From Physcomitrium patens (Eukaryota > Streptophyta > Bryopsida > Funariales > Funariaceae), in assembly GCF_000002425.4 (NCBI RefSeq), contig NC_037261.1:7802701-7866700 (forward strand): DNA of 64,000 nt, written 5' to 3'. Each line of letters starts with the position of its first letter. Position 1 is the first letter of the stretch. Below, one piece after another: positions 2,440-58,020 of this stretch. Under the pieces are notes generated by a model. That model was given only the letters and a program-made list of their open reading frames with translations. It was not told the origin of the DNA and did no database searches. Position numbers and translations under genes: made by a program.

Positions 2440-2991
2440 TGTCACGGCCATAATCATGTAAGCTAATAATTACATATAGAAATAGGTAGAAGTAAGTAAA
2501 AGTAGATAAAAGTAAGTTAATTGTATAATATTTAATATAGAAGCTTCCTAGAAACTTTCTAGACGCTGCTTTGACTTCATAGGTGTCTTTAATTGACTTT
2601 TTGGATTAGAAACGTGGTCAACAAGTTGGCCATGTGCCACACATGTTGTTAGCTTGAAGATCAAGCTAACTATGTGGCCCACACATAGAAAAACTTGCCT
2701 TGTAAGTCAAGGCATGTGTCCTACAAAGTCAACACATATTGGAGGTCCTATAGAACGTCGCCACGTAGCCCCTAGTTAGATAGTATATATAGAGACAAGA
2801 GTGAAGGCTTCTTCACTCTTGTCAACTCCTTTCTTGCTTCTAGTCTAGTTTCAAGGGTCTCTAGTTTTCTTGTATTTTGGCAATAGCCATTCCAGTTTCT
2901 TTCTTAATATACATATTTCTATTTTGTCCTATTTCTTTTTGAGAAAAGTCTCACTTACTCTTTAGCTTTCATCGAGTTCTTGTCCTTGACA
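2440..2991 (+). repeat. Element B 5' LTR, 552 bp
   Basis: Begins TGTCACGGCC and ends CCTTGACA. It is nearly identical to 8261-8812. It contains GAAGCTTC-type heat-shock half-sites near 2541, a TATATATA box at 2784 and a perfect hairpin over the predicted transcription start. Confidence 0.95.
2784..2825 (+). promoter_or_regulatory. Element B core promoter, start-site hairpin and self-primer
   Basis: TATATATA lies at 2784-2791. 31 bp downstream, at 2815-2825, is ACTCTTGTCAA, the exact complement of the PBS at 2994-3004. The spacing is what a plant TATA box needs for a start at 2815, so these would be the first 11 nt of the RNA. The region 2794-2823 is a perfect inverted repeat: GACAAGAGTGAAG, four-base loop GCTT, CTTCACTCTTGTC. 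The 3' LTR has the same arrangement at 8605-8646. Confidence 0.75.
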
Positions 2992-2993
2992 GA

Positions 2994-3004
2994 TTGACAA
3001 GAGT
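2994..3004 (+). other. Element B self-priming PBS
   Basis: TTGACAAGAGT begins two bases after the 5' LTR. It is complementary over all 11 nt to ACTCTTGTCAA at the predicted RNA 5' end. It does not begin with TGG, so an ordinary tRNA 3'-CCA primer does not fit. Self-priming is known in the Tf1/sushi group. Confidence 0.75.
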
Positions 3005-3040
3005 ACACTTACAATATCAAAGCTTTGTTTTTTCTTGAGT

Positions 3041-3110
3041 AAGAGTGGATTACCCCTTTCTCTTGACAAGACATAAGCGTATTAGAAGTTTGCGGATTAC
3101 CCACTTCTAA
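3041..3110 (+). other. Element B leader hairpins with GGATTACCC loops
   Basis: Two stem-loops lie between the PBS and gag. The first has stem AAGAG/CTCTT (3041-3045, 3060-3064). The second has stem TTAGAAGT/ACTTCTAA (3082-3089, 3103-3110). Both present GGATTACCC in the loop. Matching hairpins with different stems occur in the leaders of C and D. Confidence 0.6.
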
Positions 3111-3203
3111 ACTGATATTGTTCTTAGTATCTTCTTTGTTATCAAGTCTTTCTTTTCTTTTGTCTTGAGCAATATCAAACAAATTTTTCTTCTTAGTGTC
3201 ATT

Positions 3204-4208
3204 ATGGCAGAGCTTGTTGAAATGAAGAGTGTAATGGTACAAATGCAAGAGCAAATGAGGGAGTTAATGCTTGCGATGCATCAACTCAATTCACCAACAC
3301 AGGAAAGAACAAGAATAGCAGAAAGTAGAGATATAGAGATGATCGGAGCTGCTTCAACATCTACAACAAATCACGTTCCTTCTCCAATTGTACAACACCC
3401 TATAAGCACTAGAGAACCAAGAATTGCCTTACCTGAGAAATTTGATGGTACGAGATCAAAGTTTCGGGGGTTCATCAATCAAGTACAATTGGCAATTGAA
3501 CTTCAACCGCAAAGCTATCCAACTCTAGGATCACAAGTCAGGTTTATTGGCACTCTACTTTTTGGTTCTGCATTATCGTGGTTTTCGTCTTTTCTTGAAC
3601 AACGAAATCCAATATTGGACAATTTGGAAGCTTTTTTGGCGGAGTTTCGATCTATGTATGGTGAACACGATGCAACTCGTGTTGCAACAAATAAGATCCG
3701 AATTCTGCGACAAGGAAATCGCTCAGTAACAATATATGCTTCACAATTTCGACAACTTGCAATTGACATCAAGTGGGATGATGCTGCACTCATTAGTCAA
3801 TTTCTTTATGGATTGCAATACGAAGTAAAGAAATTGATGCTCAACTTACCTGATCCTCAAACTTTGAGTCAAGCAATCGATTTTGTGGTAAAATGTGATA
3901 ATCGACTTTTTGAATTTCGATCTGAGAATCATTCACGGGAACCTCAACGTTATTACTCAATGGCAACATCAACATCTTTGCCAAACGTACATTCAGAAGT
4001 AGAAGACATGCAAATTGACGTGGTACATTTTAAACCCCTAACTGAGCAAGAAAAGATTCGTCGTCGTCAAGAAGGATTATGTTTATATTGCGGAGAACCT
4101 AAGCACACTGCTCAACATTGTCCAAAGAAACGACGCAACTATAAAATGAGGGGTACGACGGTCAAAGAAGACAACATGTCCGAAAACGGATTCGTCCAGC
4201 TACAATAG
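3204..4208 (+). CDS. Element B Gag
   Basis: About 334 residues from the ATG at 3204, which I prefer because the sequence upstream is structured leader. A short N-terminal coiled coil (MQEQMRELMLAMHQL) is followed by a Ty3-type capsid region (PEKFDGTRSKFRGFINQ, then YGEHDATRVATNKIRILRQG and QFRQLAIDI). A CCHC zinc knuckle, CLYCGEPKHTAQHC, lies near 4079-4120. It forms the particle and packages the RNA. The pol frame overlaps its end at a -1 offset. The frame is open throughout, in keeping with the very young LTRs. C and D carry homologous gag regions. Confidence 0.9.
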   Translation: MAELVEMKSVMVQMQEQMRELMLAMHQLNSPTQERTRIAESRDIEMIGAASTSTTNHVPSPIVQHPISTREPRIALPEKFDGTRSKFRGFINQVQLAIELQPQSYPTLGSQVRFIGTLLFGSALSWFSSFLEQRNPILDNLEAFLAEFRSMYGEHDATRVATNKIRILRQGNRSVTIYASQFRQLAIDIKWDDAALISQFLYGLQYEVKKLMLNLPDPQTLSQAIDFVVKCDNRLFEFRSENHSREPQRYYSMATSTSLPNVHSEVEDMQIDVVHFKPLTEQEKIRRRQEGLCLYCGEPKHTAQHCPKKRRNYKMRGTTVKEDNMSENGFVQLQ

Positions 4209-7200
4209 GGACCGTGCAGCTGGAACCTTGTACAATTCCTAATGAAGGTCCTATCCTCTCCTCAGAACCCTCTCCTTGTTTTATAATAGACTTATATTTA
4301 GGACCTAAGAATTACAAAGCCTCTGCTTTATTAGATTCGGGAGCCTCAGCATGTTTTTTAGATGAACAATTTGTTAAAAGTCGTAAAATACCCTTTGTAC
4401 AGAAACCTAAACCAGTACATGTAGAAGTCATAGATGGTCGTCCCTTGTCTTCTGGAGATGTCACTCATGAAACTCATCCTATAAAAGTAACAATAGACGG
4501 TCATGATAGCTACATAGCTTTTAACATAATTAAATCCCCGTCCAATCCAGTTATTTTAGGTTTATCCTGGCTAGAAAAATATAACCCTCGAATAGATTGG
4601 AATTCGCGTAAACTTGACTTTTCCAAAAGCGTTATTAATAGTTTTACCAACCAAATAAAAAATTATAAGTCTACTATAGTAAAACCCGTACTGATAGGTG
4701 CAAAAGCATTTATACACGCAGCAAAAGAAGGATCAACTTTTGCTATTTATGCTGCACCTATTTCTGAAAACGTAAAGACTTCAATTGGCATTCCAAGTCA
4801 ATATCAGGAATATCAAGACGTTTTTGAGAAAAAGAATGCAGATATTCTTCCTGAGCATCGTCCATATGATTGTTCAATCGACCTCAAGGAAGGAACTCAG
4901 CCACGATTTGGACCAATTTACAGTTTATCGCAAGATGAGATGGCTGAACTCAAGACATATATTGACGAGAATTTAGCGAAGAATTTCATACGCCATTCAA
5001 AATCTCCAGCAGGAGCTCCAATTCTATTCGTAAAGAAAAAAGATGGATCATTACGAATGTGTGTTGATTATCGAGGACTCAACAAGATCACAATCAAGAA
5101 CAGGTATCCATTACCTTTGATATCAGGACTCCTTGACCAGTTGAATCAAGCTAAGATCTCTACAAAAATAGATCTAAGAGGAGCATATAATCTAGTACGG
5201 ATCAAAGAAGGAGATGAATGGAAGACTGCGTTTCGAATCAGGTATGGACATTTCGAATATAATGTCATGCCCTTTGGACTCACGAATGCACCAGCTGCTT
5301 TTCAACATCTCATGAATGATGTATTTCGTGAATTCTTAGACAATTTTATCGTCTGCTATCTAGACGATATCCTGATCTATTCCAAGAACGTCGAAGAACA
5401 TGAAATACATGTTCGTCAAGTATTACAAAAACTTAGAGATGCAGGATTGTACGCCAAGATGGAAAAGTGTGTATTTCACACTACTCAAGTTGACTTTTTA
5501 GGATACATCATTTCAAATGATGGTCTCATGATGGATTCTAAGAAAGTCCAAACAATCGTGGATTGGAAGATTCCAAGGACGGTAAGAGATGTCCAATGTT
5601 TCTTGGGATTTGCTAATTACTATCGGATCTTCATCAAAGATTTCTCACGAATTGCAGCTCCACTTACACGCTTGACTAGTAAAGATAAATTTCAATGGAA
5701 TCAAGAAGCGGAAGCAGCATTTGAAGCCTTGAAGACATCGTTTGTCTCTGCACCAGTCTTATATCGTGTTGACTTTTCCAAGGCATTTTTTATGGAAACA
5801 GATGCATCATATTTTGCCTTGGGTGCAGTTTTATCATAAATGGGAACAGATGACAAACTCCATCCGATAGCTTTTCATTCAAGAAAATTCTCAGCAGCCG
5901 AGATCAATTATGAGATCCACGATAAAGAACTTCTTGCGATCGTGGATTCCTTTCAAGAATGGCGTCATTATCTAGAAGGTGCTTCTAGTCCAGTCACTGT
6001 GTATACAGATCACAAGAACCTCGACTATTTCATGTCAGCATGCGTGTTGAATCGTCGTCAAGCTCGTTGGAGTATGTCTTTGTCAAGATTCGAGTTCATT
6101 ATCACTTATCGGCCAGGAAAACAACAAGGTTTCTCTGATGCCCTATCTAGACGTTCTTATTTTGCACCAAAAGAAGGAGATGCAGCTTTTGAGCAACAAA
6201 GAACGGTCCTCTTGAAACTGGAGCAATTTCATCTCCGAGCAATGAAATCAACATTGACTGTTGATTCAACTTTTCTCAAGCAAATCCAGTCCAGTATGTC
6301 CTCAGACCCTCTTGTTTATGATATCGAGAATAATTCTTCCAAGTCTTATGATCCTTCTAAGTTCGAGTTCAAGAATAATCTATTATATTTTGAAGGACGC
6401 CTATATGTTCCAGAAGGAGAAGCACGTTTACGTGTTCTTCAAGCACGTCATGACTTTCCAGCAGCAAGGCACTTTGGATATAATAAGACTTTGAAACTCA
6501 TATCAAGAGATTTTTGGTGGCCACAAATGTGGAAGTCAGTCAAAGACTTTGTACAATCATGTGATATTTGTTCAAGATCAAAAATTCCTCGTCATCGACT
6601 TTACGGACTTCTTCAGCCATTACCTATACCAGAACAACCATGGTCTTCTGTTTCTATGGATTTCATCACAGATCTTCCAAGCTCAAGATCTTATGATTCT
6701 ATATTTGTGATAGTAGATCGTTTCACGAAGATGGCACATTTTGTGCCATGTACAAAATCTATCATAGGTTAAGAAACAGCTAAGCTTTTCATTGATAATA
6801 TCTATCGCTATCATTGATTACCTAAAGATATCATATCAGATAGGGAAACTCAATTTGTGTCAAGATTTTGGAAGACCCTTTTCAAGATTTTAAAAGTGGA
6901 CATAAAGCTATCTTCGGCTTTCCATCCTCAAACTGATGGACAAACAGAGCGCGTAAACCAAGTCTTGGAGCAATATTTAAGGTGTACTATCAACTACCAA
7001 CAAGATGATTGGACAACCCTTCTGCCATTGGCAGAGTTTGCTTATAATAATACGGTACATTCTTCCACGCAACAAACACCTTTCTTTGCCAATTATGGCT
7101 ATCATCCACGACTTGATACTTTTGATTTTTCAAAAGTTGATAATCCTGCAGCAGAAGATATGGCAAATCGGTTGTCAGAGTTACATGCAATAATGAAGAC

Positions 7201-7702
7201 GCAATTGAAGGAAGCTCAAGAACGACAAAAGATAAACGCAGATCTATATCGTAAGGAGCAACCACAAATCAACGTGGGTGATAAGGTATGGCTACTTCGT
7301 CGCAATATCAAGACTACTCGACCTTGTGACAAGTTGGACTATCGTAGGCTTGGCCCCTTTTCTGTTTCTGAACAGATCAACCCAGTTGCATATCGGTTAC
7401 ATCTACCGGAGTCAATGAAGATCCATCCTGTATTCCACGTGTCTCTTCTTGAACCATATAAGACAGTGGATATACAAGGAAGAAGACAAATGCCACCGCC
7501 TCCTATAGAAGTAGATAATAATGAAGAATTTGAGGTGGAAGAGATATTAGACTCAAGGCAGCGCCGAAATAAGCTGGAATATCTTGTTCATTGGCGCGGA
7601 TATGATATTAGTGAACGCACATGGGAGCCATCTAGGAATCTAGCAAATGCATCAGCTAAAGTCAAAGTTTTTCATCAAAGACATCCATCAAAACCAAGAT
7701 GA
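4202..7702 (+). pseudogene. Element B pol: protease, RT, RNase H, integrase, chromodomain
   Basis: Domain order is typical of a chromovirus. Retropepsin comes first (LLDSGASACFLD, about 4331) with ILGLSWL downstream. Reverse transcriptase follows, with [18 protein letters not shown] and the catalytic YLDD at 5357-5368. RNase H has TDASYFALGAVL and YTDHKNLDYF. Integrase has its HHCC zinc finger (about 6448-6585) and core (MDFITDLP, FHPQTDGQTERVNQ). A chromodomain ends the protein (about 7528-7644: LEYLVHWRGYDISERTWEP). Such chromodomains are known in other chromoviruses to bind modified histones and steer insertion. The pol frame is -1 to gag. The copy is nearly whole, with about three breaks. 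Confidence 0.9.
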
Positions 7703-7796
7703 AAATCTCTCTTATAAAAGAGACAAGATTGAGGCAAGATAACATTCAATTTCCTATCCTTGTTTGTAACTTCTTTGCATTTGTGACGCTAATTAG

Positions 7797-8219
7797 ATGG
7801 AGAGCCAACAACCAGCGGATTCAACTCAAGAACCTTCGTTTGTTGACCTACCGGACGAGACATTACGATTGTCACAACCTTCAAGACGACGCAATCGAGA
7901 TGAAGATCTTCAAGAAAGACATGTTCTTCCTCGAACAGATGGTGAGATACAACGCGTTTGGTATCACGATTTAGGAAGGAACTCCCGATGTTTGGTGATT
8001 TTGCTAGAGGTAGGAACAACTCCTGATGGTGTTCCGAATATTCTATTTGAAGGAAGTTATGAAGGCCTCAATAATGATCAAATAACTGGGTGGTCTTCCC
8101 GCCCTGGTATGGGACACTATCGATGGTTGAGAGGCCCTATCAATCATCTTCGAAGAGAACAGAGATCAGAGTATGTGGCGAATATAATTCGTCGCATCAT
8201 AGATTTCCTCAACATATGA
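7797..8219 (+). CDS. Element B ORF3, unknown 140-aa protein after pol
   Basis: An open frame of 140 codons lies between the chromodomain end and the polypurine tract, in the sense direction. It has an acidic N-terminus, then an Arg-rich stretch (QPSRRRNRDEDLQERHV). A more ordered region holds VWYHDLGRNSRCLVILLEV, ILFEGSYEGLNNDQITGW and a basic tail (RRIIDFLNI). I see no signal peptide, membrane segment or zinc motif, so it does not look like an envelope protein. I do not recognise the family. A homologous, broken version lies at the same place in element D (25309-25731). Its survival in two clearly diverged copies suggests it is a real third gene of this family. It could be a captured host domain. 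Confidence 0.7.
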   Translation: MESQQPADSTQEPSFVDLPDETLRLSQPSRRRNRDEDLQERHVLPRTDGEIQRVWYHDLGRNSRCLVILLEVGTTPDGVPNILFEGSYEGLNNDQITGWSSRPGMGHYRWLRGPINHLRREQRSEYVANIIRRIIDFLNI

Positions 8220-8246
8220 TGACCGCTCCTCGTGGAACTCGTCTCT

Positions 8247-8257
8247 AGAAGGGGGGG
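8247..8257 (+). other. Element B polypurine tract
   Basis: AGAAGGGGGGG lies three bases before the 3' LTR and is the expected plus-strand DNA primer site. Element D keeps AGAAGGGGGGG in the same place just before 25773. Confidence 0.85.
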
Positions 8258-8260
8258 TAA

Positions 8261-8812
8261 TGTCACGGCCATAATCATGTAAGCTAATAATTACATATAG
8301 AAATAGGTAGAAGTAAGTAAAAGTAGATAAAAGTAAGTTAATTGTATAATATTTAATATAGAAGCTTCCTAGAAACTTCCTAGACGCTGCTTTGACTTCA
8401 TAGGTGTCTTTAATTGACTTTTTGGATTAGAAACGTGGTCAACAAGTTGGCCATGTGCCACACATGTTGTTAGCTTGAAGATCAAGCTAACTATGTGGCC
8501 CACACATAGAAAAACTTGCCTTGTAAGTCAAGGCATGTGTCCTACAAAGTCAACACATATTGGAGGTCCTATAGAACGTCGCCACGTAGCCCCTAGTTAG
8601 ATAGTATATATAGAGACAAGAGTGAAGGCTTCTTCACTCTTGTCAACTCCTTTCTTGCTTCTAGTCTAGTTTCAAGGGTCTCTAGTTTTCTTGTATTTTG
8701 GCAATAGCCATTCCAGTTTCTTTCTTAATATACATATTTCTATTTTGTCCTATTTCTTTTTGAGAAAAGTCTCACTTACTCTTTAGCTTTCATCGAGTTC
8801 TTGTCCTTGACT
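8261..8812 (+). repeat. Element B 3' LTR, 552 bp
   Basis: Begins TGTCACGGCC and is nearly identical to the 5' LTR. It is followed at once by the CTTGC target duplication (8813-8817). Confidence 0.95.
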
Positions 8813-8996
8813 CTTGCAATGCTTTGGTTGCCAAAGCTTCCTTTCGATCATTGCTTTGCTGTTGCTGCATTGATAATGAGAAGGCTTGAAACATACTAGC
8901 AATAGACAGATCCATGTGCATACCTTGTCCTTTAGAAGAACCCCCAGCAGAAACTCCTTCTAAAGATCCTTCAAAATTTTTATTTTCGTTCTGCAT
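8813..8996 (-). pseudogene. Element A gag N-terminus, right of the B insertion
   Basis: Minus-strand reading gives MQNENKNFEG at the start, then FQAFSLSMQQQQ and EALATKAL. The matching start of E's gag reads FQAFALFMQQ then EAMATKAL. This is the N-terminal end of A's Gag. The rest of that Gag resumes at 2439 on the far side of element B, and the CTTGC target duplication (2435-2439 and 8813-8817) marks the break. The segment upstream (8997-9045) is the untranslated leader up to the primer-binding site. Confidence 0.8.
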
Positions 8997-14221: not shown

Positions 14222-14232
14222 AGTCTCGACAA
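14222..14232 (-). other. Element C self-priming PBS
   Basis: TTGTCGAGACT on the minus strand, two bases inside the LTR end. It is exactly complementary to AGTCTCGACAA at 14372-14362 in the LTR. It differs from B's PBS at four positions, and the LTR partner changes to match. Confidence 0.75.
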
Positions 14233-14234
14233 AC

Positions 14235-14632
14235 TGTCATGGACACAAAAATACAGACCCGAGATCTAACAAGAAGTTCAAGAAGAACTGGCAAAAACTA
14301 GATTAATCAGATGAATATAAGAACAACACCAGAGAGGTGAGCTAGAGCTCGAAGAGATGTGTTGTCGAGACTGAAGACCTCTTCAGCCTCGATTCCAATA
14401 TATACTCCTATTTAGAAAGCTTCTCAAGCAACTTCTACCAACTAAAAAGCTTCTAGAAGGTTCCAGAGACTTACTTCTAGAAGCTTCTAGAAACTTATCT
14501 CTAGAAGATTCTAAGGACTATGTCCCTAACATCTTCTACCAACTAAGAAGCTTCTAGAAGGTTCCAGAGACTTGCTTCTAGAAGGTTCTAGAAACTTGTC
14601 TCTAGAAGGTTCTAAGGACTATGTCCCTAACA
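14235..14632 (-). repeat. Element C 5' LTR, 398 bp
   Basis: On the minus strand it begins TGTTAGGGACATAGTCC and ends ATGACA. The upstream half is a tandem duplication of about 100 bp (roughly 14432-14532 and 14533-14632) made of TTCnnGAA repeats. TATATATT lies at 14404-14397, with the predicted start at 14372. An imperfect inverted repeat (14365-14392, one mismatch) covers the start, as in B. Confidence 0.85.
14451..14593 (-). promoter_or_regulatory. Heat-shock-element arrays in the element C LTR
   Basis: Perfect alternating TTCnnGAA units lie at 14451-14463 (three units), at 14475-14492 as TTCTAGAAGCTTCTAGAA, at 14547-14564 as GAAGCTTCTAGAAGGTTC and at 14576-14593 as TTCTAGAAGGTTCTAGAA. Three or more such units make a strong binding site for heat-shock factors. 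They lie about 50-190 bp upstream of the TATA box, as in heat-responsive promoters. The motif is visible; heat response is inferred. Confidence 0.7.
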
Positions 14633-18379: not shown

Positions 18380-18920
18380 TATCAAGGACAAGAACTTGAT
18401 GAAAAAACAATCTAGACAAGAGAGCCTTCACTCAAAGAAAGGTAAAAAAATATAAATAAATAAATATGTATATTGAAAGAGAAACTAGAATGGCTATTGT
18501 CAAAAGACAAGAAAATTAGAGACCCTTGTAACTAGACTAGAAGCAAGAAACGAGTTGATAAGAGTGAAGAAGGCTTTACTCTTGTCTCTACATATACTAT
18601 TTAACTAGAGGCTATGTGGCGACGTTCTATAGGACTTCCAATATGTGTTGACTTTGTAGGACACATGCCTTGACTTATAAGGCAGGTTTTTTTATGTATG
18701 GGCCACATAGTTAGCTTGATCTTCAAGCTAACAACATGTGTGGCACATGGCCAACTTGTTGACCACGTTTCTAATCCAAAAAGTCAATTAAAGATACCTA
18801 TGAAGTCAAAGCAGCATCTATGAAGCTTCTAGGATGCTTCCATATTAAATACTATAGAATTAACTTATTTTTACCTATTTGTATATGTAATTACTAGCTT
18901 ATATGAGTATGTCCGTGACA
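18380..18920 (-). repeat. Solo LTR of B type inside the 5' LTR of D
   Basis: On the minus strand it begins TGTCACGGACATACTC and ends CCTTGATA. It aligns along its whole length with B's 552-bp LTR, including the start-site hairpin. Flanks are CTTAG (18375-18379) and CCTAG (18921-18925), a target duplication with one mismatch. Sequence on each side continues D's LTR. This is the product expected from LTR-LTR recombination. Confidence 0.85.
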
Positions 18921-19112
18921 CCTAGTCTTGTTTCAAGACTTTCTAGTCTTCTTGTTTTTGGCAATAGTCATTCTAATTAATATTACATCTCTTTTTGAGA
19001 GACTTTCTAGTTCTCTTTAGTGATAAAAGAGTATATTGAAGATTCTCTTTCTTCAAGATTCATGTCTTTGATAGTTTGTGAAGAGTGCTAACATATTATT
19101 TTTTTCTTGTTT

Positions 19113-25772: not shown

Positions 25773-26321
25773 TGTCATGGACATATATATTTAGCTCAAT
25801 AGTTACTTATATGATTAAGTAAAAGTAGATAAATAAAGAATAATTTCATAAAGTCTTCTAGAAAAGCTTCCTAGAAGCTTCATAGATGTGGTTTTGACTT
25901 CAAATATGTTTGTAGGTTAGAAACTTGGCCAAAAACCTAACCATGTATTAGTAGCTTGTGGAACAAATTAACTCCATGTAATAGCTTATGGAACAAGCCA
26001 ACTACGTGGCGCATACATAGATAACTTGCCTTGCAAGATAAGACATGTGACTAGCAAAGTCAACACATGTTGGAGGTCGTATAGGACATCACCACATAGC
26101 TCTTAGTTAGATAGTATATATGGAGGCAAGAGTGAAGCCTTCTTCACTCTTGTCAATGCCTTTCTAGTCTTAGTCTTGTTTCAAGTCTTTCTAGTCTTCT
26201 TGTTTTTGGCAATAGCCATTCTAGTTAATATTACATCACCTTTTGAGAGACTTTCTAATTCTCTTCAGTGATAGAAGAGTGTATTGAGGATTCTCTTTCT
26301 TCGAAATTCATGTCCTTGATA
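25773..26321 (+). repeat. Element D 3' LTR, 549 bp
   Basis: Begins TGTCATGGACATATA after AGAAGGGGGGGTAA and ends TCCTTGATA. It has the B-type layout: TTCTAGAA/GAAGCTTC half-sites near 25854-25882, TATATA near 26115 and an imperfect start-site hairpin ending CTTCACTCTTGTC. Confidence 0.85.
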
Positions 26322-27775
26322 GTTAAGAGGGCTTGAGTGGCCGAACTTCCTCTCTTTCTTCTCCTTTTTGTAAGGCGAAGCCCTCCCAAATTGTTTCTAG
26401 GCTTTTAATTGAAAGAAATTTTTTCTTACTTTATCACTGCCTTGGTATTTTCTTCCTTAGTCACTCAAAGTTTTGTGCTTTTGAGCAATATTTGGTATTC
26501 AATTTTTTTTAATTACTAGATTTTAAATAACACAAGTTACAAGTAATTTGAAGCTTAGACGGATTTTTAACAAATTTTCAAGTAGCAAGGGATTTAATAC
26601 CTTTAAGAATGTCAACTTCAAAAATTTGTAACTTGGTGACCTCTAACTCAAATTTAATATGACTTGCTAATATGAATGTAATTTAAAGTTTAATTTATTA
26701 GAAAATTTGAGTCAATAACTTTCAAATTATTATAATTTTTTGATGATTTTTAGAGTGGAGACGGATCTATTGCCCTAGTAGTTTAGAACATTTATCTTTG
26801 GAAAAACGTAACTTAATACCTACTATTTTTTTTTCATCAAATCTTATTTTGAAAAAAAACTTGTTAAGTCTAATTTTAGGAAAAAAATAGAATTTTTAAC
26901 TTTGAATCAGTAACCAATTTTTAGTAAATTTTTAAGTAAAAGAGATCTGATGCCAAGGTAGCCAAAGTAGCTCTACTTGGAAAAAACCATATCTCAAGCA
27001 TTTCGGAATAGAAAGTAGAAGTATGCTAGAGTGAACCTTAATCACACATAAATTGACATGCATTGGAGTCTCAAGAAATTTTTGGTGAATTTTTGAGTGA
27101 CAAAGGTAGTTGGCTACAATTTAATATACTCAACGTATGTTACTGTTTTCCTCTCTAATCATCCTCTAATCACATTCTTTTAGCATCTAATCTATTCTAT
27201 TAGTTCTTATTTGTCTTTTTATCATTAATTAATATTATTTTATAATTTTTAAGAACTTTTTCTTTATTTCAATAATTAATGATAAAGTTTTATCTTTTCA
27301 TCCATCTTTATCTTTAAAACATAAAAAAATTAACCTCATCTTTTTATTTTCATCTTTTATTTTTAACCTTAGTTTATAACTTTTACTTTTTACTTTCTAC
27401 TTTTATTTTGGTTATTTTAAAATCTTCACTCAACTTTTACTTATCAATTCTAATTTATTTTATTTTATTTTATTTTTTATTCATAATTTTTAGAATTTAA
27501 GCTTAATCAAATAAATCTTATAAGGCAATTAATTAACTAGACTATAATATTTAAAAAATCATAAAAATTATATACTTGACTTGTTGTACTTGATTGGATT
27601 AATAATAATATTATATCATTTTTTATTTTTTATTTTTTACTATTAATATTTATTTATTTATTTATTTTTGATATGATTATGGTTTAAATGTCCACCTTGG
27701 TTAATATTGCATTTTAATCTAAGTTACAATTGAATCAAATTGAACTTAAGTGAGGGAAAAAAAAAACCGTTCATA
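26322..27775 (+). repeat. G-type LTR fragment (3' two thirds)
   Basis: Aligns with 41754-43241 and with 56161-56738: shared AAGAGGGCTTGRGTGGCC at the left end, TCCAAGTA and AACCATATCTCAAGCATTTCGGA in the middle, GAATTGAACTTAAGTG at the right. Its 5' part is missing, and element D abuts it. Confidence 0.75.
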
Positions 27776-28335: not shown

Positions 28336-28937
28336 AAAAATGATATGAGATTAATCTATCTTTTTTCTTAATTCTACACATGTGCATGCTAGAAATTTGA
28401 CTTACATCTCAAACAATATCCACATGATAAGTTCTTCTATATTTTTACTATACAATGTCAAAAAAATATATATATTAATTTTTATATCTATATAATAAAT
28501 ATTTTGATTTTAAATCTAAAACATTCCTTACACCAATTAAAGCCATAAGAAATTTTTAAAAGTGAGGTATTAGATCCTAAAGTTTAAGAAAAAACAAAAT
28601 CCTTGTGGATAAAGAAGATGTGGGAGGTTTTAAGCTACAATTTTAGATCTTTTATATAAACCAAAGGATTTTTGGGAGTCAATACTTTATATATATTTTA
28701 AAGATGGATATATAGAGCTATGATAAAATTTTGACATAAATATGAATTTTTAAAAAAAAATTATGGATTTTCTTTGAAATTACTAAAAATCTAAGTCATC
28801 AACAAATGACTAGTTATGATTTAGTATAGCAAAGGGTGTTAGGAAATTTTTAGATGCTCTAAAAAGCCTTATGTATAAAACTTTTTAAATATAAAAGATT
28901 TTTATTAGTAGATTTTTTTTTGATATTACTATATTTA
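28336..28937. other. AT-rich DNA, nothing assigned
   Basis: No open frame or motif I can support; probably decayed transposon DNA. Confidence 0.35.
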
Positions 28938-29166
28938 TTTGTCTTTTATATTAAAAATAAATCATTTGTCTTTTATATTAAAAATAAATCATTTGTCTTT
29001 TATATTAAAAATAAATCATTTGTCTTTTATATTAAAAATAAATCATTTGTCTTTTATATTAAAAATAAATAATTTGTCTTTTATATTAAAAATAAATCAT
29101 TTGTCTTTTATATTAAAAATAAATCATTTGTCTTTTATATTAAAAATAAATCATTTGTCTTTTATT
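28938..29166 (+). repeat. 27-bp minisatellite, about 8.5 copies
   Basis: The unit starts TTTGTCTTTTATATTAAAAA and continues for seven more bases. There are eight full copies and a partial ninth, almost identical to each other (one unit has a single change). It reads as an open frame (SFILKINHL per unit) only because the unit is a multiple of three. I see no sign that it is translated. Confidence 0.9.
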
Positions 29167-29189
29167 GAAACTTAGATAATAAGTTAAAG

Positions 29190-29250
29190 CTAGACTCTGT
29201 ACAACTAGGTATTCAATGTATTCTCAGTTCATAAATCATGTTATACAACA
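29190..29250 (+). repeat. A-type LTR 3' end scrap
   Basis: CTAGACTCTG...CTAGGTATTCAATG...ATGTTATACAACA follows the pattern of the ends of the E and 60750 LTRs (CTAGATACCYRGTRYATTC...ACGACA). No recognisable element follows it. Confidence 0.45.
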
Positions 29251-29632
29251 ACATGATTGTTATGCACCAATATGGTGGGATTTGATATTGCAACATAATA
29301 CAAGCATTTATATTGAAAATGTGAAAAAATCCTAAGCAAAAGGGAGTATTAGCAAAAAATATGCCTAGGGTTTTCTCCCTCATACTTAGCCAATATCCAT
29401 GTTATACATGGATGAACTTAATAAGCGGCAATGTTCACCATAGTAAAGGCATCAATTAGATATCATCTATGAAAAACACATAGTTTGAATACATTGCTGT
29501 AAATAGAAAACATGATGACCTCCTCAAACATAACGTGTTTGAAATGTATAAATGTTTATACAACATGCGAAAAGAACTTCTCCCTTATTATACCAGAAAT
29601 TTCTACAAGATCATGGTAATTCGTCAATGCCA

Positions 29633-30653
29633 AAACTTGGTTACACAGCTTTTCTCGAAGAAAGGGATGGAGCAAGGAGTGGCTGCAACATTGGCGATAT
29701 GGCTGGCGAAAAAATGTCCCGCTGCAGGGGTTACTTTGGCCGCCTTGGGAGAGATCTCCCAGCTAGTTGCAATGCTAGATTCAAGCCCCATTTACTGTTC
29801 CCACTCGGCTCTCTTAACACTTCTCAGTCTCGCAAACGGCAACGATCTCAACAAAGCTGCCATTGTTGACGCAGGCTCGGTTCCAAGGTTGGTCTCTCCA
29901 AAATCCCAAACCATCAATCCAGGAAGCCGTCGTCGCAGCCTTTCTCAAATGTCAGCGCTAGAACGCAACAAACCCTTTGACGGCATCTCCGGGGCCATCC
30001 CTCTACTTGCTCACATCGTAAAATTCGGCCGCTGAGATCGAATTCGCACCAACGTTCTGTGGAAGCTATAAACCTGTCGAGCAATGTAACATCAAAGTCT
30101 TTGTTGAGACGGATACAATGCATCTCATCCTCAACACAGTGAAGAATCCTCATCATACGGACAAGCTATAGCATTTTTTTAGTAAGATGGTGGGTGTTCC
30201 ATTCGGTTGCAATTCCACGATGGAAATTGCCGGCATAATGGAGACCTTGATTGAGATTCTCCGGTGGGGTGCTCACTCTAAATGCCAGGAGGGAGCTGCG
30301 TACGTTCTCATGGAAGCTGCGTATCACAACTACGCCCATCGACAAGCTATGGCGCGGAATCAAGCGGTTCCTGCTTTTCCAGAGGTGTCCCTCCTTGGCA
30401 ATGAATTGGCGCAGAAGCGAGCGATAAGAATTTTGAAATGTCTACGGGAGGATCGAGCACAACGGAGGTCGGTTTCGGGTCCCATGGGACTGCTGCAGGA
30501 CAGCTCTAAATTCCACCAGAGGTATTCGATCCTTATAGACAGCTAACAGAACTTCCTTGAGGGGATAATGAACCTTGTGAATGACATGGTGCGGCAAAGC
30601 CTAGAGGAAAATTTGCAACGTATTGTGCGCAGGGCGAACTTTCCTTTGGCTTA
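29633..30653 (+). pseudogene. 5'-truncated U-box/ARM-repeat E3 ligase-like gene relic
   Basis: This host-type sequence encodes ARM repeats of the plant U-box (PUB) ubiquitin ligase family. In order it has LVTQLFSKKGMEQGVAATL, LNKAAIVDAGSVPRLV, NPKPSIQEAVVAAFL (other frame), SALERNKPF, GAIPLLAHIVKFG, NIKVFVETDTMHLILN and TVKNPHHTDK (another frame), IAGIMETLIEILRWGAHSKC, GAAYVLMEAAYHNYA, AQKRAIRILKCLREDRAQ, and the C-terminal tail DMVRQSLEENLQRIVRRA ending in TAG at 30651. Frame changes occur near 29896, near 29935, near 30030 and near 30170, where an in-frame TAG also ends one frame at 30168; another break lies between 30546 and 30570. No U-box or introns are seen, and the 5' end fades near an LTR scrap. 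A pseudogene is most likely; its working copy would be elsewhere. Confidence 0.75.
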
Positions 30654-39639: not shown

Positions 39640-40979
39640 AATTTATTTAATTTCTAGCCATATATTATATTTTTTAAAATTACTTTAATTCATATTTTAA
39701 ATTATTTAATAAATACTATTATAAATTTGCTTATTATAGTATTAAAATAATTAATATTATATTTTTTGATTAATTTATTTTTATTTTGTTCACCTAAATA
39801 TTTTAAACACAATTTGTCTATTTTTACTTATCATCTCTACTTACATCAACAATAACACCCAATATAATATTATGTCAAAATTTGGATATAATTTTATTAA
39901 TTAATATTTTTTTAGATCATCAATAATAATAAGTTATTTATTGATAATATATAAACAAATAAATAAAGTAGATTAAATTATTTTACATGTGCAATTAATT
40001 GTACATTAAGTCCATGACCTAATTTGTAAAAGATAAATTATTCTCTATAATATTTCTTTAATCTATCAATTTTCTTTTTTTTTATATTAATATAGAATTA
40101 GTTTTGAAGAACTTGAATGCAAAATTTCCTACTAATGTATAAGATAAAATGCTTAAAAGCTAAGATCTTGATATCAACAAACTAAACTTTGTGAAAATTT
40201 GTGTCAGAAATCCATGACAATGGCAAGGATTTAACTCGTACCATATAAAATAAAGTAACTCAAATATACAGCAATGTAAAACATTTTATATATATAGTAA
40301 TTACATTCATAAGAGCAGAAAATTTAATATAGATTTTTACAATTTATGTAAAGTTCCAAGATTTTTGAGTTTATTTTTTTGAAGGATAGAAAATTTTTTA
40401 ATGGTTATTCTTCTAAAAAAAACTATTAGATCTTTTTATAATTTTCATCTAGTAGAAGGAAAAAAATTTTAAATTTTTTTCAAATTTATATTTCTTAATA
40501 TACATTTTAATGACTATCATCATTTATATTTATATTTATATTTTTTAAAATGAATATTTTTAAATCTGAAACTTATATTTTTAATTTTTATATATTATAA
40601 ATAAAAAAAAATAAAATATAAGAGAAATTTATACCTAAAGATCCACTTTAAAAGCCCATGATTCAAAAGTTTTTCTAAGTTTTTCTTTTGGGTGAAGAAA
40701 TGATTTCCTTTCAAAGCATTGAACTTTGGATACGGTACAAAGTAAAATAAAAAGACAAAGAAATATATCAATTTATTCTTCTATTACAAGTTTAAATATT
40801 TTAATTTATATTTTTATTCTAAAAAATATAAAAAATATATCAATTTATTCTTCTATTACAAGTTTAAATATTTTAATTTATATTTTTATTCTAAAAAATA
40901 TAAAAAACATATAAATTAATTTTTCACTATTTTAAATGATGTTTTTATAGTGTTTCTTAATGAATGATTTTTCTTTTGA
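36601..40979. other. AT-rich gene-free region with microsatellites
   Basis: Holds (AT)n tracts at 37647-37671, 39040-39067 and 39605-39636. An approximate duplicated segment near 37790-37850 and 37930-37995 centres on GCATRGATGG and TTCATCAAAAA. A 72-bp direct repeat is present twice at about 40764-40908. No protein family recognised. Confidence 0.5.
40764..40908 (+). repeat. 72-bp tandem repeat, two copies
   Basis: ATCAATTTATTCTTCTATTA starts each unit; the two copies are almost identical. It lies 70 bp upstream of the 5' LTR of G. Confidence 0.8.
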
Positions 40980-43241
40980 TGCTAAAATTAGATTTTAGTA
41001 GAATTTTTCTTTTATGTCCTAAAAATTATATCCTGAATTAATCCACAATCTTAGTTTTCAACTCCAAGTCTGATTCTTAATTTGACTATGGTTAGAAAAT
41101 CCCTTAAGACTTTTTGTTCTATCTTCCTATTTATTTTTTAAGATTTTTTTTTTAATCTTAAATTTCATGTCACAATTGAAATAGATTAAAAATATAAATT
41201 CTAATTTTTAAATTAATGATGTTTTCTAGAAGATAGAAATGAGCTAATTGTTGTGGTGGAATTCCTCTCTTAATGATTTTAATCACTATTTAGAGATGAA
41301 AATTGGAAAGAAAGAAAAAATCACAAATATATTAATTCAAAGTCAAATTGTAATTGGATCTTTGATTTACTAAAAATTCATGTTTAAAAGACTTTAAATT
41401 GAAGAATAATAATCATAATAGCTTTGATGGCAAGAATCCTTGCTAATCTCTAAGTAGATTGAATAAAATTAATATTATAGTTAGAACTTATAACTAAATT
41501 AGAAAATTAATTAGTTTTTATGATTTAAAACTTTAATTTGGACATGTGAGTAGTCAAATTTAGGATAAAAATGTGTTTTAGAAACATTGGTGGTGTTAGT
41601 TTTGCCAAAAAAGTGTTAGTTTTTGAATTATAGGCATTTCCAGCCTTAAAATCGGATTTAGGTTTAGAGTAATCGTAGATCCTTGATCTTGCTTAGGAAT
41701 TTTTTGATTTGGATGGTTGAGATGTAGCTGCAACCTTTGGGCCCCCTCCCACCTGATTAAGAGGGCTTGGGTGGCCAAGCTCCCTCTCTTTCTTCTCCCT
41801 TTTGTAAGGCAAAGCCTTGCCAAATTGTTTCTAGGCTTTAATTGAAGGAAATTTTCTCCCACCTTATCACTACCTTGGTATTTTTTCTTCTCAGTCACTC
41901 AATTTTTTATGCTTTTGATCAGCATTTGGTGCTTATTTTTTTTCTAGTTACCAGCTTTGCAATGATATAAGCCACAAGTAATTTGAAGCTCAAATAGATT
42001 TTTGGCAAATTTCCAAGTAGAAGGGGATCTATTATCCTTGACATTGTAGAAACATCTATTTTAAAAATTTGTAATTCAGTGACTTCTAACTCAACTTAAT
42101 ATGACTTTAATATGACTTGATATTACGAATGTAATTTAAAGTCTAATTTATTAGAAAATTTGAATCACTAACTTCTAAGTTATAACAAATTTTTGATGAT
42201 TTTTAGAGTGAGGATGAATGTGTTGTTTCAGCAACTTAGTACAATTACCTTTGAAAAAACATAGTTCAATATCTATTAATGTTTTTTCATCAAAGCTTAT
42301 TTTAAAGAAAATCTTGATAAGTATAGTATTAAGAAAAAATTAAATTTGTTAACTTTGGATCATTAACCAACTTTTGGTGAATTTTTAAGTAGAAAGGATC
42401 TGCTGCTAAAGGAGCTCAAGTGGCTCTACTTGGAAAAAACCATATCTCAAGCATTTCGGATTGGCTTTATATAAGATTTAAAAAGATAGAATAATGCTAG
42501 AGTAAACCTTGATTACACCAAAATTCACATGCATTAGAGTCTATAGAAAGTTTTGGTGAATTTTTGAGTGGCAAGGGTGGTTGCCTACAATTTGACATGT
42601 TCAAGGTATGTTATTATTTTCCTTTCTAATCATCTTCTAATCACATTCTTTTAGCATCTAATCTACTCTATTAGTTCTTATTTATCTTATTATTATTATT
42701 ATTTAATATTATTTAATAATTTTAAAGAATTTTTTCTTTATTCCAATAATTAATGATAAAGTTTTATCTTTTCAACTATCTTTATCTTTAAAAGATAAAA
42801 ATAAATTAACCTTATCTTTTTATTTTTATCTTTAACTTTTAATCTTAATTTATAATTTTTATTTTTTTACCTTCAACTTTTATTGTGGTTATTTTAAAAT
42901 CTTCATTTAATTTTTAATTATCAAATTTAATTTATGTTATTTCATTTTATTTAATTTTTTATTCATAATTATGAGAATTTAATCTTAATCAAGTAAACTT
43001 TGGAAGGCAATTAACTAATTAGACTATAATTTTTAAGAAATAATAAAAATTATATACTTGACTTATTATGCTTGATTGGATTAATTATGATTATTATATT
43101 ATATTATTTATATTTATATTTATATTTATTTTTTTATTTTTTATAATTATGATTTAAGTATCCACATTGGTTAATATTGAATTTCAATCTAAATAAAATG
43201 GAATCGAATTGAACTTAAGTGGGGAGAAAAAATTGCTCACA
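40980..43241 (+). repeat. Element G 5' LTR, 2262 bp
   Basis: Begins TGCTAAAATTAG and ends AATTGCTCACA. The 3' copy starts at 55384 and is alignable for about 1355 bp. A third, partial copy is at 26322. The PBS-like TGGTGCATTTGCC follows at 43245. Confidence 0.75.
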
Positions 43242-54250: not shown

Positions 54251-55383
54251 GCTTTTGTTAGATTCTTATCTCGTTAAGGAATTCTTTTTCAATAATTTTA
54301 TTTAACTATAAATCTTAAATGGAGAAGACTTCTTAACTCACACTTCTGAAAATAGATACAAAGAATAGAAAACTTAATAATTAGATTGTTACCACCACCT
54401 TATATTTATCAACCATTTACTAAATTTAGATATAGAAATTTTTTTATGTAGATATTTATTATGATTATAAAGATCTTGGAAGTTTTAATATGTCAAATTA
54501 GCATACAACTTGCTACTACTATATAATTTATAACAATCTCTAAAAATATCTACTTATAGGCATAAGAAGTGAATTAAGATAAAGATTAGATTCAAATTGG
54601 TTTAGGATTAAAATCCTCTAAGTTTTTAAATTGATGCTATTATGATTGTGAACTAATGAATATATAGGAAAAAAAGCTATAGGATGGATATAGAAGGATC
54701 CCTCTATGCAGTTGTACTTAGATCAACTTATATAACTTTCAAAAGATCTTCATTTAGATTCATACTAATATAAGCTAATATTAATATTTTAATTCATAAA
54801 ATTCAAAATTTTCTTAAAATTATATCATTCTTTAGTCCAAATTCACTTTAATAAAGATAGAAAGAGGATTTGTAATATTTTTTGGCTATAGATTCAAACT
54901 TGTTCTATCCAAGGAGAATGGAATATTTTTTTATATTTTTATTTATAGATCCAAGAAACCTTGATTTGAATAGAGAAGTCTAAGTCCAATTCTCTTCTTG
55001 TTTGCAACTATAAACTAAATTCCTAAAACCATGAGGCCCAATAGATAAGACAACTAATACTTCTATTAGCAGGAAACTTTAAGTTCTTCTCTTCTTCTAA
55101 TCGTCCTAGATGGTTGCCGTGTGTGAGTACAATTAATATCCTCAATGGTTAGTTATAATCACTTTTATAATTTTTAATATATTTTTAATAATTTTAATGC
55201 TAATATAATTAATTTATAAATCTAAATTAGTTTTTTTAGTTAATTATGACTTTGTTTGTATTTTTAGGTTATTAAGTAGATAGATACTTCTAATTATTAG
55301 ATTGAGTGATTATTAAAAATCCTAAAATTAATAGGTTTCGAAAGTCCATAATTTTTTTGATCTAATTTAAATTTTTTTTTTAG
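54251..55383. other. Element G 3' untranslated region
   Basis: AT-rich DNA between the integrase fossil and the 3' LTR. No other feature seen. Confidence 0.4.
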
Positions 55384-56738
55384 TGCTAAAATTAAAATTT
55401 TACTAAAATTTTACTTCTAAGTCTTAAAAATTATATCTTGAATTAATCCACAATCTTAGTTTTCAACTCCAAGGCTGATTCTTTATTTGACTATGATTAG
55501 AAAATCCCTTAAGACTTTTTGTTCTATCTTCCTATTTAATTTTTAAGATTTTTTTTTTAATCTTAAATTTCATGTCACAATTGAAATAGATTAAAAATAT
55601 AAATTCTAATTTTTAAATTAATGATGTTTTCTAGAAGATAGAAATGAGCTAATTGTTGTGGTGGAATTCCTCTCTTAATGATTTTAATCACTATTTAGAG
55701 ATGAAAATTGGAAAGAAAGAAAAAAATCACAAATATATTAATTCAAAGTCAAATTGTAATTGGATCTTTGATTTACTAAAAATTCATATTTAAAAGAGTT
55801 TAAATTGAAGAATAGTAATCATAATGGCTTTGATGGCAAGAATCCTTGCTAATCTCTAAGTAGATTGAATAAAATTAATATTATAGTTAGAACTTATAAC
55901 TAAATTAGAAAATTAATTAGTTTTTATGATTTAAAACTTTAATTTGGACATGTAAGTAGTCAAAATTAGGATAAAAATATATTTTAGATACATTGGTGGT
56001 ATTAGTTTTGCCAAAAAAGTGTTATTTTTTGAATTATAGGCATTTCCAGCCTTAAAATCGGATTTAGGTTTAGAGTAATCGTAGATCTTTGATCTTGCTT
56101 AGGAATTTTTTGATTTGGATGGTTGAGATGTAGCTGCAACCTTTGGGCCCCTTCCCACTTGATTAAGAGGGCTTGGGTGGCTAAGCTCCCTCTCTTTCTT
56201 CTCCCTTTTGTAAGGCAAAGCCTTGCCAAATTGTTTCTAGGCTTTAATTGAAGGAAATTTTCTCCTACCTTATCACTACCTTAGTATTTTTTTCTTCTCA
56301 ATCACTCAATTTTTTATGCTTTTGATCAGTATTTGGTGCTTATTTTTTTTCTAGTTACCAGCTATGCAATGATATAAGCCACAAGTAATTTGAAGCTCAA
56401 ATAGATTTTTGGCAAATTTCCAAGTGGCAGAGGATCTATTATTCTCGACAGTGTAGAAACGTCTATTTTAAAAATTTGTAACTCAGTGACTTCTAACTCA
56501 ACTTAATATGACTTTAATATGACTTGATATTACGAATGTAATTTAAAGTCTAATTTATTAGAAAATTTGAATCACTAACTTCTAAGTTATAGCAAATTTT
56601 TGATGATTTTTAGAGTGAAGAAAAGTCTATTGCTTCAGCAACTTATTACAATTACCTTTGCAAAAACATAGTTCAATATCTATTAATATTTTTTCATCAA
56701 ATCTTATTTTAAAGAGATGCTTGCTAAGTATAATTTTC
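55384..56738 (+). repeat. Element G 3' LTR, truncated
   Basis: Starts TGCTAAAATTAAAA and follows 40980-42340 closely. It breaks off at about 56738, where copia sequence begins. Confidence 0.75.
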
Positions 56739-58020
56739 TATTATGGTCTTTGTTCAATTAACCTTTCTATATTATGAGCCAAGATGATAAAATCATCAAA
56801 ATAGATAATTACTATCAGTAAGAACTCTTTAGATTGCATTACATATAACGAATAATCAGTCTCACTCTTTACAAATCATTTATTAATAAAAAATGTGTCA
56901 ATACATTAGTACCATGCTTTTGGTAATAGTTTCAATCTATACAATGATTTCTTCAACTTGCATATAAGGTGTTCTTTGTCTTGTTGTACAAATCCTTGAA
57001 GTTGATCCATGTAGGTGTCTTCTTGCAATTCTCCATTCAAAAAGGTCATCTTCACATCTATTTGTTGTATTTCCTAGTCCATTGCTACTTTAATTGCCAC
57101 AATATCCCTAATGGTAGTGAATTTGGCAATGGATGCAAAAGTCTCATTAAAGTCAATTTTAGCAACTTGTAAATATCTTTTAGCAACTAATCTTATGTTA
57201 TGCCTCACCATTATATCCATTGTATCTCTTTTAGTCCTAAACATCCACTTACAACTATCATTAGATTGATTTGCTAGAAAACGTGCCAATTCTTATGTAT
57301 CATTATTCATACAAGATTGGTATTCTTCTTCCATAGCTTTTTTCTACTTCATTGCATCTTGAGATTTTATAGCATCACACAAAGATATACTTTACTTACT
57401 TAAAGAAAGATGTGGTTCTTCCACCATTTGTCACAAGGTCTTCTTTCTCTTAAGGGATATCTTCTTTCATTTCAATAAGATTTAGCTATTTGTATTCTAA
57501 GCTCCCTTTCAAGCTTCTTAACTCTTAAAGCTTGTATTTTTTTACTTAAAGGTTGATACTCTTTTTCATTATTGTTATAATATTCAACATCTTCATTTCT
57601 GGCCTTTAGAATTTGAAAAGGCCTTCTTTTTCATCTTCATTTATAGCTTTATCATCTTTATTTTTTTCATCTTCTTCTTTTGTTGCTGAAATTGGAGATG
57701 TGTCCACAAATACATCATTATTCCTACTTAGACATAACTCCAAGTACTCATAAGAACTTTTATATTCTAAAAATTCAACATCACAATTTTTGGTGATCTT
57801 TTTGGTATCTAAACATATTAGCTTAACTTTCATGCTTTAGTACCTTCACAATATTCTAAAAAAATACACTTTGTATCTTTTGCATCAAGTTTGGACCTCA
57901 TACAATGTGGTGTCTTTGCATGTACAATGCATTCAAAGATCCTCATATATAAAATATAAGGTTTTTTCTTATTCTAAGTTTTTTATGATGTCATTGATGT
58001 AAGAGCACTTATTAGATATC

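Follow-up and report, generated by a model that had tools for sequence, protein, structure and literature searches.

The window, a 64,000-nucleotide stretch of the Physcomitrium patens genome (RefSeq assembly GCF_000002425.4, contig NC_037261.1, positions 7,802,701 to 7,866,700), carries LTR retrotransposons that are referred to here as elements B, C and D. Element B lies on the plus strand at positions 2440–8812, with two LTRs of 552 bp each and the target duplication CTTGC at 2435–2439 and 8813–8817. The 5′ LTR (2440–2991) is 99.8% identical to positions 8261–8811 across 551 bp, and the 3′ LTR (8261–8812) was delimited by comparison with the 5′ LTR and by reading its ends, which are unlike, with TTGACT at 8812 in the 3′ LTR versus TTGACA in the 5′ LTR. 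The first base of a TATA box, TATATATA (2784–2791), is located 31 bp ahead of the putative self-primer and presumed RNA start, ACTCTTGTCAA (2815–2825), and the primer binding site (PBS), TTGACAAGAGT (2994–3004), begins two bases 3′ of the LTR. These are followed by the gag open frame (3111–4208; Pfam Retrotrans_gag and Ty3_capsid), a frame encoding the protease and reverse transcriptase (4145–5839; Pfam RVP_2 and RVT_1, placed in the RT tree), the RNase H and integrase zinc-binding domain in the same frame past a stop codon (5840–6772), and the C-terminal part of the integrase with a Tf2-type SH3 domain and a chromodomain (6818–7702; Pfam SH3_Tf2-1 and Chromo, and translation). According to the open reading frames of the window, the pol frame of B is interrupted by stop codons. 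A probable polypurine tract, read from the sequence, adjoins the 3′ LTR at 8247–8260.

Element C is situated on the minus strand, with its self-primer AGTCTCGACAA at 14362–14372, 32 bp past the TATA box at 14404, and its PBS TTGTCGAGACT at 14222–14232; its U3 contains a tandem duplication of about 100 bp at 14429–14632 (94% identity). Element D is an older copy on the plus strand, bearing a decayed PBS (19076–19086) and, in its 3′ LTR, a self-primer copy read from the sequence (26146–26156). The 5′ LTR of D houses a B-type solo LTR on the minus strand (18381–18920), 85% identical to the LTR of B, with a left arm at 18574–18586, a primer copy at 18555–18565 and a similar hairpin; it is flanked on both sides by resumed LTR sequence of D. 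Outside these elements, an open frame at 29484–30035 matched two P. patens proteins, one with 97% identity over 67% of the frame and the other with 100% over 40%, and an array of about 12 units of a 27-bp tandem repeat was found directly upstream of it (28883–29206). A second repeat family was represented at 40968–42717 and 55373–56812, 14.4 kb apart, with several stretches 93–96% alike, and by a third, more diverged copy at 26323–27246. No match to Rfam (gathering threshold) and no tRNA was found when the window was scanned.

For comparison purposes, relatives were drawn from 65 contigs of prokaryote assemblies, which we take to be eukaryotic contamination. Contigs L002–L007 and L032 are labelled Trichormus, a name that presumably points to an Azolla fern host, and they are hence called fern-associated. 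Eukaryotic-type LTR elements were present in the “uncultured Trichormus” contigs L002–L007, L020, L021, L023, L032 and L047, probably as contamination from the plant host. In an RT tree of 49 of the 88 gathered rows, with a midpoint root and without a Tf1 or Tcn1 reference, elements B, C and D and the fern-associated L002–L007 fell in a group of 36 rows (100/99) together with seven named frog sequences, which we take to be sushi-type, while sequences from Tanacetum and Closterium lay outside the group. Contig L001 sat with C and was counted as moss-type. The chromodomain at the integrase C-terminus of B was recognized with Pfam Chromo at 1.6e-15, and the F, W and Y in its translation presumably occupy the aromatic-cage places (positions after HP1). 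Elements B, C and D thus appear to be P. patens chromoviruses of the Tf1/sushi-Tcn1 group, with which the RT tree agrees.

The Tcn1 plant chromoviruses described in PMC6317226 are alike in their moss and club-moss hosts, chromodomain, mostly absent tRNA PBS and relation to Tf1/sushi, and a Tcn1-type group in non-seed plants is restated in the relevant part of PMC10085805. SM-Tcn1 of Selaginella, likewise a Tcn1-clade element of a non-seed plant, differs in that its authors (Novikova et al. 2010, PMC2864245), in the part of their report considered here, did not find a tRNA PBS or self-priming in it. In P. patens, RLG1 is the most abundant transposable element, of gypsy type with a chromodomain and expressed in protonema; priming is not covered in the portion of that paper used here (PMC7466625). 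We take B and D to be, most likely, copies of RLG1.

The 11 nucleotides at 2815–2825 in B are an exact complement of 2994–3004, as are 14372–14362 in C of 14232–14222, both as proposed in the sequence-only reading. At the base composition of the LTR, the match in B is expected by chance about 0.0002 times per LTR and, among the 11-mers starting at 2992–3300, the LTR contains the complement of the one at 2994 only. The PBS starts two bases past TGACA, or past TGATA in the D copy of the window; the B site, formerly placed inside the LTR, is in fact two bases downstream of the LTR end at 2991. The TATA-to-primer spacings of 31 bp in B and 32 bp in C were confirmed, whereas the four compensated differences claimed between B and C proved to be three (primer positions 2, 6 and 8), all of them compensated. 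The match of 9 of 11 reported for D holds for the copy in the window and reflects the decay of one old copy: among 29 other D copies, 12 matched at 11/11, 11 at 10/11 and six at 9/11.

The same layout as in B was also found in contigs L001, L003, L005, L006 and L032, with a complement of 11 nt, and in L007, with one of 12 nt; these six serve as examples and not as a rate among the 65. Five primer sequences were read: ACTCTTGTCAA in B and D, AGTCTCGACAA in C and L001, AAGGTGAACAA in L003, AAGGCGAACAA in L005, L006 and L032, and ACTCTTGATCAA in L007. When the four 11-nt forms (B, C, L003, L005) were compared, primer positions 2–8, i.e., seven of 11, were variable, and each change was mirrored in the PBS. 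This covariation is carried by four arm/primer forms only, from two host groups, and L003, L005, L006 and L032 all come from one assembly. Matches in L020, L024, L026, L033, L039, L043, L045, L053, L059, L060 and L064 were rejected as chance, being without a TGACA-type LTR end. A first scan for a hairpin plus a PBS had given 22 matches (word length 9) versus none in shuffles, many of which were dropped because they represented the tandem U3 repeat of C or were without an LTR end. Screening of viral contigs by pattern returned 4 and 43 matching stretches, none confirmed as a relative.

Across the P. patens genome, the primer–PBS match was 11/11 in 8 of 8 copies of B, 19 of 30 of C and the 12 of 29 of D given above, and the others had one or two mismatches. 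The copies were read at 8 (B), 30 (C) and 30 (D) loci from the 40 near-full-length best matches of each; the counts include the B and C of the window and leave out its D, and they favour motif-keeping copies, since the B and C queries contained the motifs. A protein search, from which eight loci were taken among 76 scored matches, recovered the primer and PBS in all eight (six at 11/11, two at 10/11), with the U3 arm described below visible in 8/8 and an open frame of 1187 aa in 4/8. A genome-wide test of covariation had been proposed, and its outcome was divided: the two sites covary between lineages, whereas within families the primer, arm and PBS of single copies have mutated independently of one another, which is what dead copies would be expected to show. 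Covariation within families was thus without support in the copies read; paired changes in single D and C copies were few and, being of the C-to-T or G-to-A type, fit decay. In the window and 70 loci (297 kb), no third P. patens primer form with an LTR-type end was found, only the B/D and C forms.

In all nine elements with this layout, the primer begins at C|A, 31–33 bp past the first T of the TATA box. The preferred TATA-to-start distance is 30–31 bp in mouse and has been estimated at 32 bp in Arabidopsis, in the part of PMC1779604 drawn on here, and it is from the TATA spacing that the RNA start of B would be placed at A2815. A similar arrangement is known from Tf1, in which the first 11 bases of the RNA are complementary to the PBS and RNase H cuts between bases 11 and 12, and the same self-priming has been proposed for Tj1 of fission yeasts, in the passages of PMC7175516, PMC4600332 and PMC10085805 relied on here. 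The exact complement, its covariation across unrelated primers, the TATA spacing, the C|A start, the absence of a tRNA-type PBS and an RT group common to the frog elements together make it highly probable, judging from sequence, that the moss elements are self-primed. This part of the sequence-only reading stands; its claim of novelty for land plants falls, because Neumann et al. 2019 (PMC6317226) had already predicted self-priming for the majority of Tcn1 chromoviruses of plants, which they report from mosses and club-mosses, and for the copia TAR elements.

Two other explanations were rejected. One is that priming is by a tRNA or half-tRNA, with another role for the match in the LTR, as could be supposed because other plant chromoviruses use tRNA priming as a rule (PMC6317226). 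However, the expected absence of a tRNA match was borne out in comparison with 20 moss tRNA genes: TGG is absent from the 22 nt at the PBS in both B and C, the complement to a tRNA 3′ end reaches at most 2 nt, and internal matches are at most 7 nt, no longer than with a shuffled PBS. The genes compared cover six kinds (Lys, Asn, Gln, Arg, Ile and Asp), which leaves room for a half-tRNA of another kind; we consider tRNA priming very improbable. The other is chance complementarity, whose probability we regard as negligible given the expectation quoted for B alone and the recurrence of the match, with different letters in the same place, in C and the contigs.

A feature missed in the sequence-only reading is a hairpin whose 3′ arm includes primer sequence. 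In B, this hairpin consists of 13 bp formed by a left arm in U3 (2794–2806), 5′ of the presumed RNA start, and a 3′ arm (2811–2823) that overlaps primer positions +1 to +9; its predicted energy is −21.3 kcal/mol (z −5.9), and none of 200 shuffles was as stable. The corresponding left arm of C, TCGAGGCTGAAG (14381–14392, minus strand), forms 12 pairs (z −5.6), and that of D, GGCAAGAGTGAAG (26125–26137, plus strand), was read in the 3′ LTR and from the hairpin fold. Hairpins with z between −4.7 and −8.3 were obtained in eight of the nine elements, the exception being L007 (z −0.4), and in all eight the left arm sits 3′ of the TATA box and 5′ of the presumed start. The arm pairs with the primer up to +8 or +9, mostly also with 3–4 bases upstream of +1, across a 4-nt loop; the helix measures 12–13 bp in B, D, C, L001, L005, L006 and L032 and is shorter and interrupted in L003.

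When each arm was compared with its own primer, 70 of 72 positions were paired in the eight elements, versus 214 of 414 with the primers of different-primer elements; the register was the best of nine per element, a choice that gave 3/9 in the armless L007. Because MAFFT put the moss-type and fern-associated hairpins in different registers, the pairs were counted by position. The arms of D, C and L001 contain one G:U pair where the PBS has A, and thus do not simply duplicate the PBS. Taken together, the U3 arm is probably a base-paired element, of RNA or DNA, that is linked to the primer. Since L007 has a primer and a PBS without it, the arm is dispensable in some self-primed elements. Our literature search, which lay outside the main Tf1 papers, so that an earlier report is possible, found no U3 arm covarying with a primer and PBS. 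Such an arm and the three-way covariation go unmentioned in the passages of PMC6317226 considered, and no arm is mentioned for Tf1/Tf2 or Tj1 in the parts of PMC7175516, PMC4600332 and PMC10085805 considered, in contrast to the moss elements. What is apparently new is a U3 arm before the presumed RNA start that matches the primer, not self-priming itself.

The moss elements also differ from Tf1, which, as far as those sources describe it, requires a three-duplex “pretzel”. The LTR-end duplex of this structure was seen in none of the four moss-type elements (B, C, D and L001), where the pairing of the LTR end with U5 was no better than in shuffles (fractions 0.42–0.97); the five fern-associated elements do show this duplex, at fractions of 0.000, 0.005, 0.01, 0.045 and a borderline 0.06 (L032). 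The duplex between the LTR and the region after the PBS stood out only in L003 (0.02) and L006 (0.045) of the nine elements, and in none of the moss type. With its side duplexes not found, a pretzel was rejected for the moss-type elements, which appear to resemble Tf1 at the primer step while the rest of the Tf1 RNA structure was not found. Additionally, L003, L005, L006, L007 and L032 share the motif CACMAGTTRYG after the primer, near +12 to +25, which pairs with the LTR end (GTTACGGAG with CTCCGTGAC, plus matched variants).

The possible consequences of the arm were explored by folding short pieces without protein. In the 5′ RNA folded alone (D left out), the primer paired with the PBS with a probability of 0.89–0.95 in 8/8 elements. 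In two-strand RNA folds of eight elements (L006 left out), the pairing of the PBS with the 3′ primer copy was 0.00 throughout; when the 32 nt ahead of the primer were held unpaired, the 3′ copy captured the PBS at 0.40–0.96 in seven elements and at 0.00 in the armless L007, which speaks against the RNA half of a lock. When pairing of the 5′ primer was disallowed, the 3′ copy captured the PBS at 0.00–0.01 in B, C, L001, L005 and D, 0.44 in L003, 0.55 in L032 and 0.97 in L007. Pairing of the PBS with the 5′ primer was itself low in some two-strand folds (B 0.01, L001 0.19, C 0.60), and in B the LTR-end sequence TCTTGTC was the partner of the PBS instead. For plus-strand strong-stop DNA, the PBS snapped back with a probability of 0.00–0.32 in the eight arm-bearing elements, 0.59–0.98 when the 32 nt before the primer were held unpaired, and 0.97 in L007; even in the arm-bearing elements, the PBS was only 0.35–0.76 unpaired and hence not wholly free. 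These models suggest that the arm may prevent both PBS pairing with the second primer copy, at the 3′ end, and PBS snap-back in strong-stop DNA.

The explanation that we prefer overall, with somewhat better than even confidence, is that these are self-primed Tf1/sushi-Tcn1 chromoviruses with a primer-locking U3 arm. Transcription of B would begin at A2815, as the TATA spacing suggests, and nucleotides 1–11 of the RNA, which are complementary to the PBS at 2994–3004, would pair with it and, after cleavage of the kind known from Tf1, prime minus-strand synthesis into U5. With R at each end of the RNA and the PBS copied again, an element that primes itself has extra copies complementary to its own PBS. 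The arm at 2794–2806 would be missing from an RNA starting at 2815, leaving the 5′ primer copy free to prime. The arm would be present both in the 3′ LTR, where it precedes R, and in plus-strand strong-stop DNA; there it could fold over primer positions +1 to +9 and prevent snap-back of the PBS end of strong-stop DNA ahead of strand transfer. The hairpin and the covariation are observed in the sequences, and the lock function that they may serve is put forward tentatively, on the strength of the folding models.

Two other readings accept much of this. The arm could be a promoter or DNA element, such as a protein-binding dyad or a feature that positions the start site, and play no role in reverse transcription while self-priming is right; its location in 8/8 hairpin elements, downstream of the TATA box and ahead of the presumed start, would suit this function, but the arm tracks the primer and not a fixed binding motif, the moss-type and fern-associated arms are unrelated, and the replacement of A:U by G:U in C, L001 and D preserves RNA pairing better than a DNA palindrome. 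We regard this as rather unlikely. Alternatively, foldback synthesis or mis-transfer could re-make the palindrome, so that the three-way match results from copying and not from selection. The arm does run in the same sense as the PBS, and the palindrome of the moss-type elements, L005, L006 and L032 extends 3–4 nt past the 11-mer, as foldback copying would give; at the G:U pair of D, C and L001, however, arm and PBS are unlike, and the recurrence of the end at +8/+9 and of the 4-nt loop in both host groups suggests a constrained shape. An origin as a by-product is also improbable in our judgment.

Under the preferred reading of a primer-locking arm, self-primed LTR elements of non-seed plants may carry a dedicated U3 lock arm that covaries with primer and PBS, a generalization that we consider conceivable and short of probable. 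If the fern-associated contigs do come from ferns, the host range would be wider than the mosses and club-mosses of Neumann et al. The self-complementarity needed for priming turns hazardous after the first strand transfer, as pairing between the primer copy in the 3′ R and the recopied PBS would abort strand transfer; a covarying lock arm would be a built-in answer to this hazard, and the use of the armless 5′ copy would let the element tell apart the two R copies at the ends of its RNA.
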